DNA from: Cohaesibacter sp.
Lineage (GTDB): Bacteria; Pseudomonadota; Alphaproteobacteria; Rhizobiales; Cohaesibacteraceae
NCBI GenBank assembly: GCA_025800105.1
Contig: JAOXSG010000671.1
Location: forward strand, 1 to 45,838
Length of the DNA stretch: 45,838 nt
Direction: 5' to 3'
The notes under the pieces were generated by a model that was not told where the DNA came from, made no database searches, and saw only the letters and a list, made by a program, of their open reading frames with translations. Shown one piece after another: positions 20,649-25,209 of this stretch; position 1 is the first letter of the stretch; the number at the start of each line of letters is the position of its first letter. Both the position numbers and the translations under genes were made by a program.

Positions 20649-21605
20649 CTAACTCCTCGCTCCTGCTCGGTTGCCCTGCAATCCCTCGGCATGGCAAGGA
20701 GGCCAGCTACTCTCGACGAACCAACCGAACTCGCCAGTTTCTCGATGGCTGTAGTGCGGGAACTGCCTGCCATGACGATGCGCTACCCAAGCTTTCCACT
20801 CATCGCTATCGCGGCGGATAAACACCAATGATCGATTGCTTTGGTTCACTGATTGCTGCGCCTGCCCTTGCCACAGCTTGTCGGCCAGATAGCGCTTGGC
20901 ACTGGTCGGATAGCTTCGTGCTTTCGTGGCTCGTTGGAACCCTACCGCATGCTCGACCGCTAGCGTTCGTTCCTCATCGCTCAACCCATCCCATTCACGC
21001 CAAGCCTTTGCGAAACTATCCGCCTCGTTGAGCTTCCACGTCTGGCAAAATCTCTCCCACTCCTCGTCCACATCGCCTTCCGACGAGCAGGAAAGGAGAT
21101 TTAGAGGTTTTTCTTTAGTTTTCTTTTGATTGTTTTTTCCTTCCTTATAGGGGGCGGCAGCATTTGCCGTTTGTCCGGCAGCTCCTGCCGTTTCTCCGGC
21201 AGCATTTGCCGAACTATCACCGGCAGCATTTGCCAAATCGGCAGCTCCTGCCGCAGCATTTGCCGTTTCAGCGGCAGCTCCTGCCGTTTCTCCGGCAGCA
21301 TTTGCCGCAAATCCTGCCGCTTCTTCACCCATATCAACAGCTTTTTCACCCTTATCAATGAGCAAAATATAGACCTCCTGATACCCATTATAGCGCTCAC
21401 GACGCAGCAGCTTGGCCTCCTCAAGCTTGGCAACCCATGTCCGTAAAGAGCGCTCACTCATCTCGGTATCAGCCAGCAACCGCGCCCGACCGGGAAAGCA
21501 CCTGCCAGAGCCATCAGCACGCCCAGCAAGCGCCAGCAGCAACGCCTTGCCAACAGGTCCGCCACAATTCTGCCTACGCGCCCACTCGCCCACATAATCA
21601 CTCAT
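20649..21605 (-). CDS. Replication initiator-like protein with N-terminal winged helix and repeat-coded Ala-rich linker
   Basis: 318 aa from the ATG at 21605. Residues 1-80 (VGKALLLALAGRADGSGRCF, then RLLADTEMSERSLRTWVAKL) are a helix-turn-helix of the HTH_36/phage replication initiator type. Residues 95-155 are an Ala/Gly/Asn/Thr-rich linker of imperfect 7-residue repeats such as ANAAGETAGAA, encoded by an iteron-like DNA array. The C-terminal part (WKLNEADSFAKAWREWDGLS, then ARSYPTSAKRYLADKLWQG) resembles the C-terminal region of phage replication proteins. Lambda O has the same order: DNA-binding domain, linker with origin, interaction domain. The role in replication initiation is inferred from this build and from the position before the HNH gene. 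Confidence 0.65.
   Translation of the reverse strand: MSDYVGEWARRQNCGGPVGKALLLALAGRADGSGRCFPGRARLLADTEMSERSLRTWVAKLEEAKLLRRERYNGYQEVYILLIDKGEKAVDMGEEAAGFAANAAGETAGAAAETANAAAGAADLANAAGDSSANAAGETAGAAGQTANAAAPYKEGKNNQKKTKEKPLNLLSCSSEGDVDEEWERFCQTWKLNEADSFAKAWREWDGLSDEERTLAVEHAVGFQRATKARSYPTSAKRYLADKLWQGQAQQSVNQSNRSLVFIRRDSDEWKAWVAHRHGRQFPHYSHRETGEFGWFVESSWPPCHAEGLQGNRAGARS
21104..21319. repeat. Iteron-like array with adjacent AT-rich tract inside the initiator gene (candidate phage origin)
   Basis: Two related palindromic 15-mers, CGGCAGCATTTGCCG and CGGCAGCTCCTGCCG, alternate at 21155, 21176, 21197, 21221 (last base changed), 21239, 21251 (first bases changed), 21272 and 21293, with a half unit to 21319. 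Most spacings are 21 bp, two helical turns. Directly left of the array, 21104-21147 is a T-rich/A-rich tract with strong strand asymmetry. Iterons next to an AT-rich segment within the initiator gene is the layout of the lambda origin. Confidence 0.6.
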
Positions 21606-21655
21606 GACACACCTCCTGCCGCACGCAATTGTGCGCATAATAATGCACGCAACCC

Positions 21656-21687
21656 TTGACAAATCGCCCTAAAATACACATTATAAT
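21656..21687 (+). promoter_or_regulatory. Candidate hicAB promoter
   Basis: TTGACA (21656-21661) and TATAAT (21682-21687) are both perfect consensus boxes, but 20 bases apart, longer than ideal. Just left, the stretch GCACGCAATTGTGCGC (21621-21636) is a partial palindrome that could be a HicB operator. Repression by HicB is known for the family and is inferred here. Confidence 0.5.
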
Positions 21688-21724
21688 ACACACAAACAGA
21701 CACTAGGCGATGCAAGGAGCCGTG

Positions 21725-21907
21725 ATGGAAACAAATAGCCGCGAGATTATAAAGCGGCTCAAAGCCGAAGGTTTTGAAGAGGTGTCGATAAAAGGCTCGC
21801 ACCATAAATTGAGGAAAGGCGACAAGATTGTCATCGTCCCTCACCCCAAGAAAGACCTTCCCATCGGCACTGCCCGAAAAATCGCCAAAATGGCTGGATG
21901 GCTTTAG
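21725..21907 (+). CDS. hicA: HicA-family mRNA interferase toxin
   Basis: 60 aa from the ATG at 21725, which has AAGGAG five bases before it; an earlier in-frame ATG at 21710 lacks this. The short dsRBD-like fold is clear: SREIIKRLKAEGFEEVSIKG, then SHHKLRKGDKIVIVPHPKKD and a basic end. The histidine in GSHHK is the usual catalytic residue of HicA RNases, which cut mRNA when released from HicB. The gene is rightward, diverging from the replication gene, and is followed by hicB after 42 bases. It probably stabilises the prophage or serves in defence. Confidence 0.93.
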   Translation: METNSREIIKRLKAEGFEEVSIKGSHHKLRKGDKIVIVPHPKKDLPIGTARKIAKMAGWL

Positions 21908-21949
21908 AGCCATTCGCCACACGCCACCGCACCACAAGGAAGACCCGTC

Positions 21950-22348
21950 ATGAACCACTATATTGCTGTGATCGAGAAAGACCCCGACAGCGCTTATGGA
22001 GTCAGCTTTCCCCAATTGGAAGGCGTCTTCTCTGCTGGCGATACTTTCGAAGAAGCAACCAGAAACGCAAACGAAGCCCTGCAACTCTTCTTTGAAGACA
22101 ACCCATCTGACCGTCCAACACCTTGGACCATGGATCAGGTGCGCAATCTGGAAGATGTGCAAACCGACTTGACCCAAGGCGCTATGCTGGTCGCAATCCC
22201 TTATATCGAGCTGACTGGCCGTACCGTCCGCGCCAATCTTACATTCGATGCAGGCCTTCTGGTCGCAATTGATGAGGAAGCCAAAGCAAGAGGCATTTCC
22301 CGCTCTGCCTTCATTGCCAGCGCCAGCCAAGCCATGCTGAATGCCTAA
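21950..22348 (+). CDS. hicB: HicB-family antitoxin with ribbon-helix-helix domain
   Basis: 132 aa. The N-terminal HicB fold (NHYIAVIEKDPDSAYGVSFP, then QLEGVFSAGDTFEEATRNA) binds the toxin; the C-terminal 40 residues (LTFDAGLLVAIDEEAKARGI, then SRSAFIASASQAML) form a ribbon-helix-helix DNA-binding domain. AAGGA precedes the ATG. Together with hicA it makes a type II toxin-antitoxin pair that should control its own promoter. A rightward terminator follows at 22381. Confidence 0.93.
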   Translation: MNHYIAVIEKDPDSAYGVSFPQLEGVFSAGDTFEEATRNANEALQLFFEDNPSDRPTPWTMDQVRNLEDVQTDLTQGAMLVAIPYIELTGRTVRANLTFDAGLLVAIDEEAKARGISRSAFIASASQAMLNA

Positions 22349-22416: not shown

Positions 22417-22686
22417 TCATAACGCCACCTCCTCGCACCGGAGGGTGCGTAGGGTTTTGTGGGCTGTGGCTGTGTGGCTCACTGTTTGGGCGTGATAGTC
22501 GCGTAGGATGTGGAGCAGGTTGTAGAGCGTGCTTGTGGGGCTGTCAGGGCTGTCTGACAGGTTTTCATTAGCAATGGTGCTCATGGCATCCAAAATTGAT
22601 TTCTGAAGGTCCAGAGCTAAATCTATTTCATCAAGGGTAACTGCTAATCGTGTAGACGGATTCCGCCCGTTTGCCGCCAGAGCCAT
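22417..22686 (-). CDS. Small phage protein of unknown function, downstream of a structured leader
   Basis: 89 aa from the ATG at 22686 with a near-perfect AGGAGG (22698-22693) six bases before it. The sequence is NPSTRLAVTLDEIDLALDLQ, then KSILDAMSTIANENLSDSP and a C-terminal helix STLYNLLHILRDYHAQ; it has no membrane segment and resembles nothing I can name. The same frame continues open far upstream to 25227, but that stretch is antisense to two other genes and lacks start signals, so I take only this segment. The ribosome binding site is part of a stem with sequences about 75 bases upstream, so expression is probably RNA-controlled. By analogy with P1 or P4 it could be an antirepressor or immunity-escape gene. 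Confidence 0.7.
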   Translation of the reverse strand: MALAANGRNPSTRLAVTLDEIDLALDLQKSILDAMSTIANENLSDSPDSPTSTLYNLLHILRDYHAQTVSHTATAHKTLRTLRCEEVAL

Positions 22687-22694
22687 GGCGAACC

Positions 22695-22886
22695 TCCTAG
22701 AGACAGGTTTTTGATACCTGACCGCAGAAAGGCTAATTTCGGGCGGCCAGACGGACAGGATTAGCCTTACCGTCTCTAGGAACGGCGCACTTTCGTGCTC
22801 CTGAACGCCTGACCATAAGAAAAAACCACGCACACGAGAGTACGCGGCGCAGCTCAAGCGCCTAGAGATGGAAGGGAGGCTAATCC
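22695..22886 (-). promoter_or_regulatory. Three-segment leader with mutually exclusive pairings over the ribosome binding site
   Basis: Read leftward, segment 1 is GGATTAGCCT (22886-22877) plus TCTCTAGG (22868-22861). Segment 2 is TCCTAGAGAC (22781-22772) plus AAGGCTAATCC (22768-22758). Segment 3 is ATTAGCCTTT (22737-22728) plus GTCTCTAGGA (22704-22695), which includes AGGA of the ribosome binding site. Segment 2 is complementary to both others, as nested two-part stems. Pairing 2:3 (10 + 9 bp) would hide the ribosome binding site; pairing 1:2 (10 + 8 bp) would free it. A further small stem, CAGGT/ACCTG, lies at 22720-22704. Confidence 0.7.
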
Positions 22887-22930
22887 CCGCATGCCTTTGT
22901 GTGACATGCTCATCGGCTAATAGCCGACTA
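22820..22930 (-). ncRNA. Candidate C4/CI-type small antisense RNA
   Basis: The leader from about 22930 folds into successive small stems: CGGCT/AGCCG, GCATG/CATGC, GGG with loop GATTAGCCT and CCC (segment 1 exposed in a loop), GGCGC/GCGCC, and finally CGCGUAC/GUGUGCG with loop UCUC, followed after three bases by U6 (22825-22820), a possible intrinsic terminator. A short structured transcript that exposes two segments complementary to the downstream mRNA resembles phage P1 C4 RNA and the P4 CI/seqA/seqC system. The folds were drawn by eye. A match to a known RNA family has not been tested. Confidence 0.5.
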
Positions 22931-22936
22931 TCCCTA

Positions 22937-22965
22937 CTAATGCGCTGATTTGTGGGAATTGTCAA
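22937..22965 (-). promoter_or_regulatory. Candidate leftward promoter of the structured leader
   Basis: TTGACA on the minus strand (22965-22960) is perfect; 17 bases later lies CATTAG (22942-22937), a weak -10 box. Transcription would begin near 22930 and run through the candidate RNA into the 89-aa gene. Confidence 0.45.
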
Positions 22966-23133
22966 ATGGTGGAAATACGGACTCGACTCATGCGTGTGTT
23001 TTGTTAATCTCAAAACTCCACCTCTGCTACAGGCACTTTGCTTCAAACCAAAGACCTTCAGCAGAAATCTAAGATATTGGCAAACACCATTTCTTGTACC
23101 CGATCTCCTGTAGTTTAAATGTTGCCGTGATTT

Positions 23134-24507
23134 ATGACTTCCATTGCAGAAAGAGACTATAGCTTCATAAAAAACGAAGCTCAGGCAGGTCGAATTAGGC
23201 TTGTCATTATTACTTTCATGTTTGCATTTGCAATACTGGGAGGAAGCTTGATACTTAAAGTATCCGACCTCTTCACCGGAACCATTCTCATAACAATATA
23301 TCTTATAATAATAGTAGGTTTCGCAAGTTACATAGCCAACAAATACGAACAACAAAGAAATATCGACCAGAGAAAAATATGTGACCTCATAGATTGGAGT
23401 CGGGGAAATATTGCCTTTCTCAAAAACTCCACACAGCAAAGTTATATCCGCATCGGTGATGAACACGAGATATTGGAGTGGCTCAACCAAAATGCAGCAT
23501 TTTGGGCCAAAACAAGAGAGGTAAGCAAGGCTCGGATATGGACTACAATCTGTGACTTCCAGCATGAGCTTTTCTATTCTGCTCGCATTATGCTTCTCGA
23601 TCAAAAAACCGACGGATTGCACGAGATCGCCAAACTCAACGAAAGGAATGGAATCCTTCATCTTGAAAGTGCAATAGGTAGATATGTTCAGAACCCAGAA
23701 ACCCCATCTGAACGTATTCTCTACGCCTGCTGTTTTCTCGCCGAGGTTGATTACAACTTTTCGTACACCAGACAAATTGATGACAAAAAAGTCATTTGCA
23801 ATCAGACGCGAATTCGGGAAGACTTGCAGGGGGTTTTTAGAACTACCTTCGACACAGTAAACGAAGAAACCTTCGGGCAAATGGTGCTCAAGGATTTGGT
23901 ATTGGTCGCAATTCAGCAAGCCAGTTCCCTTCAGGAGCAGGTGGATCAGCTGGATATGCTTCGTCGAGACATGACTAGAACTCTGCAAGAAGCAAATTCC
24001 ACTCTCAGCTTGAGACCAGCCGCAAAGCGATGGCGTAACAGCGCCTATTTCAATTTTTTTCTTGCGATAATTGGCCTTTCTCCCTTTGTCCTTATCTGCG
24101 CAAGTTTGATCTTCAATTGGGAAACGATCATAGGCTTCGCACAATACCTTTTCTCTCCTGATAGCAAAGGCTCGCTTCCTATCGATGCCTATCGAAATAC
24201 ACTTAAAGATCTGCCTTGGTCTGCCGTCGTGTTTATCTCCATTCCAGCTATTTTCCTTGCGTGGCTTCTGAAGCACTTTAGCCGAATGTTTGTTCAGGGT
24301 TTCAATCTTGCTAATGATGCCCGCTATCGATCTGCCCTGGCCCAAGTTTATGCCGATGTTGATGCGAAGCATGAACTGACTAACGATCAAAAAAGAATTG
24401 TTTTTGAAGCCATGTTTCGACCTCGTAATGTAGCGCATAACGATGACGGTATACCGTACTCGCCCGTCGAGAACCTGACGGAAGTAGTCAGGGGCAACGG
24501 TAGGTAA
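23134..24507 (+). CDS. Membrane protein of unknown function, DUF6161-like C-terminus
   Basis: 457 aa on the strand opposite to the phage operons. Two transmembrane segments lie near residues 23-45 and 49-69 (LVIITFMFAFAILGGSLIL, ILITIYLIIIVGFASYI). A long soluble region (70-300) follows, with a coiled coil near 265-290 (ASSLQEQVDQLDMLRRDMTR). Two more membrane segments lie near 310-330 and 366-385. The final 70 residues (ANDARYRSALAQVYADVDAK, then DQKRIVFEAMFRPRN) resemble the C-terminus of DUF6161 membrane proteins. The stop is directly followed by the start of the next gene, so the two form one operon. AT content is higher than in the late genes, a sign of separate origin. Phage exclusion is a guess from context. 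No strong ribosome binding site is seen. Confidence 0.7.
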   Translation: MTSIAERDYSFIKNEAQAGRIRLVIITFMFAFAILGGSLILKVSDLFTGTILITIYLIIIVGFASYIANKYEQQRNIDQRKICDLIDWSRGNIAFLKNSTQQSYIRIGDEHEILEWLNQNAAFWAKTREVSKARIWTTICDFQHELFYSARIMLLDQKTDGLHEIAKLNERNGILHLESAIGRYVQNPETPSERILYACCFLAEVDYNFSYTRQIDDKKVICNQTRIREDLQGVFRTTFDTVNEETFGQMVLKDLVLVAIQQASSLQEQVDQLDMLRRDMTRTLQEANSTLSLRPAAKRWRNSAYFNFFLAIIGLSPFVLICASLIFNWETIIGFAQYLFSPDSKGSLPIDAYRNTLKDLPWSAVVFISIPAIFLAWLLKHFSRMFVQGFNLANDARYRSALAQVYADVDAKHELTNDQKRIVFEAMFRPRNVAHNDDGIPYSPVENLTEVVRGNGR

Positions 24508-25209
24508 ATGATCAATCCCTCCCATATCCTCACTTTCAGCTTTGGGGCTGGCGTAACAATTCTGATCATGCTCGGGCTGGGCTATCAGCTCGACGGGGAT
24601 ATGGGCCTTTGCAAGCTCGAAGCCGCAAACAGCGCAGCGGAGACCCCAGCCACCTGCCTGCGCTCTTGGCTCGGTGCCCTTAGCGGCTGGGTAGCTGTCG
24701 TTGGTGCTTTGGGTATAGGTCTGCCAACGCTCAACTGGATGCGTGCGCAAACGCAGCTCCCGACCGTCAAAGCTGAGATTATTGAGCTTGAGAAACTGAT
24801 ACAGAGCCTCAGAGACGCAGACAGTCCTATCGGTGACCTCTATGGTCTTATGGATACTGGAAAATGCAACTGGTCTGATGTGGTCACGCTGGCTAAAAAA
24901 ATTGACAGCAGCCTTAATGTCATTGAGAAGGCTTTTGTTAAAATCCAAACTCTGGGCTTGGAAGGAATTGAGCCAGACATTACTTCTGCAATTAGTATTG
25001 CAAGCGACTTGGCTATGACTTACGGCTTTATGATCCTCCATCATGGAGATAGAGAAGTTAGTGAAGAGATATGGCAAGCTGCGATTGTCGAAAAGTTTGA
25101 AAAAATTAGAAAGTGCCTTGTCCAACACAGAGACGGGTACATCCCAATCCTGACCAATGAATTGGCTAGACTTCGCAAATGGCAATATAGACAAGCAATT
25201 CCTCACTAA
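24508..25209 (+). CDS. Two-TM membrane protein with helical cytoplasmic domain, partner of the upstream gene
   Basis: 233 aa; the ATG follows the upstream stop with no gap. Two hydrophobic segments (ILTFSFGAGVTILIMLGLGY, residues 7-26, and WVAVVGALGIGLPTL, 61-75) bracket a short loop with two cysteines, CKLEAANSAAETPATC. A helical soluble part follows (KAEIIELEKLIQSLRDADSP, then LAKKIDSSLNVIEKAFVKIQ). No family is recognised. The pair is inserted between the antirepressor gene (25224-) and the RNA leader (22.97 kb) and points against both, as an accessory 'moron' cassette does. Superinfection exclusion or abortive infection are possible roles; nothing in the sequence proves them. Confidence 0.7.
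   Translation: MINPSHILTFSFGAGVTILIMLGLGYQLDGDMGLCKLEAANSAAETPATCLRSWLGALSGWVAVVGALGIGLPTLNWMRAQTQLPTVKAEIIELEKLIQSLRDADSPIGDLYGLMDTGKCNWSDVVTLAKKIDSSLNVIEKAFVKIQTLGLEGIEPDITSAISIASDLAMTYGFMILHHGDREVSEEIWQAAIVEKFEKIRKCLVQHRDGYIPILTNELARLRKWQYRQAIPH

Follow-up and report, generated by a model that had tools for sequence, protein, structure and literature searches.

The window (the whole 45,838-nucleotide stretch of Cohaesibacter sp. DNA that was analysed) carries on its minus strand, from 22965 to 22686, a leader that runs up to the start codon of a gene for an 89-amino-acid protein, here called P89 (Table 1). For the promoter, the small hairpins and the U6 terminator that the original prediction had placed in this leader, the sequence shows a promoter-like site with a weak -10, small hairpins and a terminator-like hairpin with T6; the stretch 22931-22823, with its hairpins, folds with -42.4 kcal/mol. 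The two-part segments that had been proposed to be complementary in two alternative ways are indeed so; the pairings a1:a', b1:b', a':a2 and b':b2 are Watson-Crick at 8/8 positions in each case, and when the flanks were shuffled with the core fixed and the dinucleotides kept, 0/2000 shuffles equalled the a match and 0/2000 equalled the b match. We note that a 27-codon open reading frame (22733-22816, minus strand), by eye without a Shine-Dalgarno sequence (SD), begins at the AUGG of the C4 core described below; it may be compared with orf45 of the isrK locus.

P89 had been called uncharacterised, and it has no match in Pfam, PHROGs or PADLOC, so that membership in a family known to these collections is rejected. 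AlphaFold predicts a two-helix hairpin (mean pLDDT 79.6, pTM 0.60), and a known viral fold is rejected as well, the best Foldseek E-value being 0.42 and none being <= 0.001. Homologs of P89 are found in 8/397 genomes of the order, the window's own included, and all are in the genus Cohaesibacter. In the viral contigs a scan with the single protein found none, and an alignment scan found one relative, at locus L058, whose P89 DNA is identical to the P89 DNA of Cohaesibacter marisflavi; the latter homolog lies on NZ_FOVR01000001.1 (contig C28 of genome G009, which belongs to the window's genus). A BLASTP comparison of P89 with the 93-aa first gene of C4 locus L029 gave 20.8 bits and, for that single comparison, an E-value of 0.001, which is suggestive only.

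In 7/7 related loci P89 precedes a gene that matches residues about 274-333 of the window's replication-initiator-like gene. The C. marisflavi gene, which has no Pfam match in the 62-aa stretch scanned, is called replication-initiator-like because its neighbouring stretch resembles the window's gene. On the other side of the leader, at least one of the two plus-strand genes has an opposite-strand homolog beside the switch in 6/7 related Cohaesibacter loci, and neither has a PADLOC match. The statement that P89 lies next to the antirepressor region is loosely true: a Rha/KilAC-like gene exists, but it is upstream and beyond these two plus-strand genes. No antirepressor comes after P89 in the window.

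Table 1. Features of the P89 leader and the surrounding genes
Feature	Position	Strand	Basis or remark
Promoter-like TTGACA-N17-CATTAG	22937..22965	-	sequence; TTGACA 22965-22960, weak -10 CATTAG 22942-22937
Predicted short terminated RNA with a1 and b1 (place of IsrK / seqA)	22820..22930	-	inferred from promoter and T6
Segment a1, ATTAGCCT	22877..22884	-	8/8 complementary to a'
Segment b1, TCTCTAGG	22861..22868	-	8/8 complementary to b'
Terminator-like hairpin(s) and T6 (22825-22820)	22820..22848	-	sequence and folding
C4 antisense RNA core (RF01695)	22739..22820	-	cmscan; AUGG, RNase P-like GG 22814-22813
Segment b', CCTAGAGA, loop of third C4 stem	22773..22780	-	covariance-model alignment and pairing
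Segment a', AGGCTAAT, C4 junction strand	22760..22767	-	covariance-model alignment and pairing
Segment a2, ATTAGCCT	22730..22737	-	8/8 complementary to a'
Segment b2, TCTCTAGG	22696..22703	-	8/8 complementary to b'; overlaps SD AGGAGG 22698-22693
P89 gene (89 aa), first after switch	22417..22686	-	ORF; ATG at 22686
HicA-HicB pair	21710-22348	+	between P89 and replication-initiator-like gene; homologs in same interval in L240, L241, L242
Replication-initiator-like gene	20649..21662	-	Pfam HTH_36, PHROG replication initiation; downstream, same direction as P89, beyond hicA-hicB
Two divergent genes (457 aa, 233 aa)	23134-25209	+	457 aa: sub-threshold DUF6161 match; 233 aa: in no family; both diverge from the promoter-like site of the C4 leader
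Rha/KilAC antirepressor-like gene	25934-25224	-	upstream of switch, beyond the two plus-strand genes

The C4 core and C4 loci in relatives

The original prediction had seen in this leader the logic shared by P4 immunity and the phage P1 C4 RNA, and the Rfam C4 model (RF01695) supports the likeness to C4. Searched by E-value against 22600-23100, the model aligns over its full length (positions 1-87) with 22820-22739 on the minus strand at 44.5 bits, 0.5 bit below its gathering cut-off of 45 bits, with an E-value of 2.3e-7 that comes from this 501-base search; a scan of the whole window with Rfam at the gathering threshold gave 0 matches. The same interval has no match up to E 10 to isrK (RF01394), and membership in that family is rejected by sequence; nor has it any up to E 10 to sRNA-Xcc1 (RF02221), which has 0 matches in the window's genome. 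The full-length C4 alignment gives a three-stem core whose P3 loop contains b' and whose junction contains a'. The a'b' pair is complementary (8/8 and 8/8 pairs) to a site that overlaps the SD of the next gene, a second complementary site, a1b1, is present upstream, and a GG like that of an RNase P start is seen in the core. C4 antisense RNA is processed by RNase P to about 77 nt. The gene controlled by C4 is usually an antirepressor, a feature that we take as non-defining; P89 has no antirepressor match in Pfam or PHROGs, and hicAB and the replication-initiator-like gene come next. By its anatomy the window leader is a C4-type switch that falls just under the Rfam line; it is ordinary in kind, and both its host and the gene that follows it are new.

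In phages P1 and P7 the C4 RNA is described as being cut out by RNase P, at GG, and its b' as covering the ribosome-binding site (PMC5320573), and the P1 gene order is given as c4-icd-ant (PMC8198154). The window leader resembles these in core structure, in its a' and b' segments, in the AUGG start, in the a1b1 upstream and the a2b2 at the SD, and in having a small first gene, P89, in the place of icd. It differs in that this first gene has no database match, that no antirepressor comes after it, and that the run leads towards a replication-initiator-like gene.

C4 matches with E <= 0.001 were found in 8/101 relatives (5 above the cut-off), 16/397 genomes of the order (12 above) and 5/385 genomes of the class (4 above), with the window's own genome counted each time; these multi-genome searches, and those with RF02221 (below), used stricter filters, which lose weak matches. 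The C4 comparison set has 28 loci, own included, of which 27 were used in the 7-nt match tests of b and all 28 in the 7-mer test of a. A TTGAC[ACG] lies <=150 nt upstream of the core in 24/28, own included, a T4 or longer run <=45 nt before it in 26/28, and (A/T)TGG at the core start in 26/28. The complement of b' has an exact match of at least 7 nt upstream in 20/27 loci (cross-locus 6.3%); in 18/27 such a match falls within the last 25 nt ahead of the start codon (cross-locus 5.4%). One b 7-mer is found in all three places in 15/27 loci, own included, represented by 14 different 7-mers (cross-locus 10/702, 1.42%), and one a 7-mer in 20/28, also by 14 different 7-mers (cross-locus 35/756, 4.63%). 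A wide-window rank test gave a weaker result than the anchored one: a locus's own pair ranked within the top 5% of cross pairs 10 times for b upstream, 12 for b downstream, 5 for a upstream and 6 for a downstream (n=28).

There are misfits in this set: L003 and L025 seem decayed, the b match is weak in L005 and L029, and L021, L022, L033 and L035 match partly; L008 and L009 have an identical C4 core. The 8-mer picker used in the shuffle comparison misplaced b in some loci (L008, L022), and the assignment of the first gene after C4 was mechanical, with the wrong short ORF taken for L003 and L027 and the gene context of L009 entered for L008. The letters of the segments are ATTAGCC/TCTCTAGG in the window versus ATTGGCC/TACGAGG in its nearest relatives, a difference that needs a concerted change in three places. 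Segments that vary without keeping complementarity had been named beforehand as evidence against the idea; the relatives mostly keep the three-way pairing with the letters changed. The sequence itself shows a C4 core and exact three-way complementarity in this leader, and the complementarity is kept in most relatives.

Small genes come after C4 in many relatives. Antirepressor-family genes recognised by Pfam stand directly after it in L005 and L006 (KilA-N), L021 (ORF6N), L032 and L036 (AntA) and L033 (P22_AR_N), and the gene in L022 has a sub-threshold Rha match only. Three loci have a small gene and behind it an antirepressor-family gene, recognised from its first 90 residues (Bro-N in L018 and L019, Rha in L029), which is the P1 order c4-icd-ant. 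The genes after C4 in L020, L034 and L035 were judged by eye.

Proposed mechanism and alternatives

In Gifsy-1 some isrK transcripts are reported to terminate, giving a short RNA, and the rest to read through, giving an inactive mRNA that the IsrK short RNA makes translatable in trans (PMC4825925). The IsrK/orf45/anrP arrangement is like the one predicted for the window in having a promoter, a short terminated RNA, a read-through mRNA with complementary parts, a downstream small ORF and alternative folds, and the short RNA predicted to end near 22820 has the same place as the terminated IsrK RNA; the difference is that the complementary part lies within the reach of orf45 in Gifsy-1 but ahead of the start of P89 in the window. 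In two viral contigs an Rfam isrK match ends 19-28 nt before a C4 match (twice in L092 and once in L119), so isrK stands where a1b1 stands. In both of these single contigs isrK, C4 and sRNA-Xcc1 lie in tandem (L092, 2422-3753; L119, 843-1672). The three-part logic of the window switch is also common to P4 CI with its seqA, seqB and seqC.

The leader is very probably a C4-type antisense RNA switch of a Cohaesibacter phage or prophage. Transcription, processing, repression and an effect on downstream genes at this switch are what we infer, in the following form. A leftward transcript would start near 22930, and a part of the transcripts would stop at T6 to give a short RNA with a1 and b1; in those that read through, C4 would be followed by the P89 message. 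Cleavage by RNase P at AUGG would free C4, whose a' would then pair with a2 and whose b' with b2, blocking the SD of P89, the putative first gene of the run towards the replication-initiator-like gene. The same C4 segments would also pair with the short RNA or, in cis, with a1b1, which would remove C4, and the winner of the contest between a1b1 and a2b2 pairing would set the expression of the genes, per immunity type.

Folds of the 332-nt leader have energies of -128.2 kcal/mol with a1b1 paired to C4, -123.0 with native C4 and -114.6 with C4 paired to a2b2, so the alternative pairings exist on paper. The C4:a2b2 pairing has near-zero probability in the 332-nt fold, and the full transcript prefers a1b1:C4; since the uncut transcript holds C4 by a1b1, C4 would have to be processed and act in trans to repress. 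According to the original prediction one pairing hides the AGGAGG. This holds insofar as b2 overlaps AGGAGG and pairs 8/8 with b', but a local hairpin closes the SD even without C4 (it is 1-2% open whether the folded sequence is the full leader, the leader starting at C4 or the leader lacking C4), so the hiding of the SD by C4 would be only part of the story. In a shorter P89 stretch the openness of the SD region is 0.13, versus a median of 0.45 for 27 C4 leaders. In these fold models the P89 leader may be shut by default, and changes of pairing may then open the SD.

An attenuator like that of P4 CI, in which C4 would act mainly on transcription, binding a1b1 and a2b2 of the nascent RNA to promote termination, with the blocking of the SD secondary, is an unlikely explanation of the same arrangement. 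P4 CI is said in the IsrK report to act by transcription termination, and its authors regard P4 seqA as structurally homologous to IsrK and consider that STnc1160 may act in termination (PMC4825925). A terminator-like hairpin does stand shortly after b1 in the window, and the T run recurs there in relatives. However, b2 overlaps the SD and 18/27 C4 loci have the loop match of at least 7 nt in the 25 nt before the start codon, which together point to translation.

It is far less probable still that the leader is a decayed or silent C4 remnant, whose pairing was inherited and is no longer used and in which hicAB separates P89 from the replication gene. The sub-threshold C4 score would suit such a remnant, as would the hicA-hicB pair that runs in the opposite direction between P89 and the replication-initiator-like gene, but this pair sits in the same place in L240-L242 too, and four perfect pairings are found in letters that differ from those of the nearest relatives, which would require the concerted three-place change. 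Chance, or an ordinary leader with fortuitous repeats, has next to no probability. Although short anti-SD-like segments recur, and random cross-locus pairs reach 7 nt in 3-8% of cases, chance repeats are rejected by the shuffles (0/2000), the covariance-model match to C4 and the kept pairing in relatives.

sRNA-Xcc1 leaders before P89 and other phage genes

C4 lies upstream of P89 in 3/8 of the Cohaesibacter genomes that have this gene (the window's own, G009 and G013). The other 5/8 (G003, G006, G011, G015 and G016) have no C4 match in the search of the order genomes, and their leaders match sRNA-Xcc1 (RF02221), L062 to L065 with 59.6-66.0 bits and L066 with 49.6 bits, which is under the cut-off of 53. 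Gene order around these sRNA-Xcc1 loci is similar (a DnaA_C-like gene, the leader, P89, a Rep-like gene and a 169-aa gene that is HNH-like by eye), with one or two opposite-strand genes before the leader in 4/5 of them. The L062-L066 leaders also carry TTGACAAT and a T5 run after the hairpin. In 4/5 of the loci similarity to P89 begins at residue 14, as if the leader and the first codons had been exchanged as a block. The sRNA-Xcc1 RNA is like C4 in its order of stems and in a loop that can pair both with a segment upstream and with the region around the SD of the gene behind it; it differs in its second stem (AAUACAAnACCC..GGGGAAU), and it is a separate Rfam family with no clan shown. With one gene, P89, under two RNA families, sRNA-Xcc1 stands where C4 stands.

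RF02221 matches 57/398 genomes of the phylum sample, 39 of them above the cut-off, and an exact sRNA-Xcc1 signature is present in at least 120 stretches of the viral contigs. The set used for comparison is drawn from these viral stretches, together with fetched genome loci that have the same signature, and it holds 131 usable signature matches with 121 distinct cores, of which 108 are viral, 9 come from the phylum sample and 4 from Cohaesibacter. The covariance model, applied to 45 sampled viral signature loci, reaches the RF02221 cut-off in 40 (8/9, 17/20 and 15/16); the loci below it are L073, L077, L078, L083 and L113. We note a subgroup, L067, L070, L084 and L086, in which a promoter-like TTGACG lies past the core and no a1b1 is clearly recognisable ahead of it; L070 and L086 barely pass the cut-off.

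Complementarity was tested in the 102/121 cores that are followed by an SD and an ORF of at least 40 aa, the 19/121 without being left out. The complement of the P3 loop has an exact match of at least 7 nt upstream in 76/102 (cross-locus 8.0%); in 66/102 such a match falls within the last 25 nt ahead of the start codon (cross-locus 3.3%), and one b 7-mer is found in all three places in 33/102, with 29 different 7-mers (cross-locus 55/10302, 0.53%). Own pairs fall in the top 5% of cross pairs 33 times for b upstream, 33 for b downstream, 18 for a upstream and 11 for a downstream (n=121), in a wide-window rank test that gave a weaker result than the anchored test; the low counts for a indicate that the a segment of sRNA-Xcc1 is weakly specific.

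The genes after sRNA-Xcc1 were scanned with Pfam in 81/93 first genes with distinct N-termini, 12 that were near-duplicate, cut or short being left out. The matches are KilA-N 14, Rha 13, Bro-N 11, ORF6N 9, AntA 8 and P22_AR_N 6, a sum of 61 of the 81 in which double membership is possible, and so these genes are largely of antirepressor families. In Aggregatibacter phage S1249 (L238), for example, a gene annotated as antitermination protein Q is followed by sRNA-Xcc1 (66.6 bits) and ant, and the segments read CACATAA, TTATGTG and CACATAA for b and CTCAAAA, TTTTGAG and CTCAAAA for a. SymE is present in 6/44 RF02221 genomes searched (44 of the 57), and in three genomes a total of six SymE matches follow an RF02221 match on the same strand at a distance of 71-134 nt. 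By script, three of the SymE leaders (L218, L220 and L226) have b matches of at least 6.5/7 on both sides; the b matches of L225, L229 and L231 are unconvincing, and the downstream match of L225 sits over the start codon, not the SD.

Going by the title of Chen et al. 2011 (RNA Biol), sRNA-Xcc1 is reportedly a trans-acting, integron-encoded sRNA. It was found in Xanthomonas, where the targets described are computed ones (PMC2996969). The most widespread Xanthomonas integron cassette is said to hold both sRNA-Xcc1 and symE, the former upstream, and a divergent mechanism is suggested there (PMC12444791); for Xylella, C4, isrK and sRNA-Xcc1 are tabled near each other, with no link drawn in that presentation (PMC12189769). 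In the openly available text of the literature searched, which does not extend to Chen et al. 2011, sRNA-Xcc1 is given no experimentally defined target, was not found with an antirepressor, occurs with "C4 antisense" only in the Xylella paper (PMC12189769) and occurs with prophage only as a table.

The likenesses in sequence suggest that sRNA-Xcc1 belongs to the same functional class as C4. It is quite probably a second large class of C4-type phage antisense RNA, whose loop would pair with an upstream decoy and with the adjacent SD of antirepressor genes, P89-type genes and some SymE genes; C4 and sRNA-Xcc1 leaders would be swapped as whole cassettes before the same gene, making the RNA a swappable immunity module. 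The window element would extend C4 control to Cohaesibacter and to the small P89 gene ahead of a replication-initiator-like gene. The comparison with sRNA-Xcc1 is the bigger gain, for it points, for a widespread RNA family, to a specific target that can be put to the test, namely the SD of the gene that follows, and, if it is true, phage immunity groups would be readable from about 15 bases.
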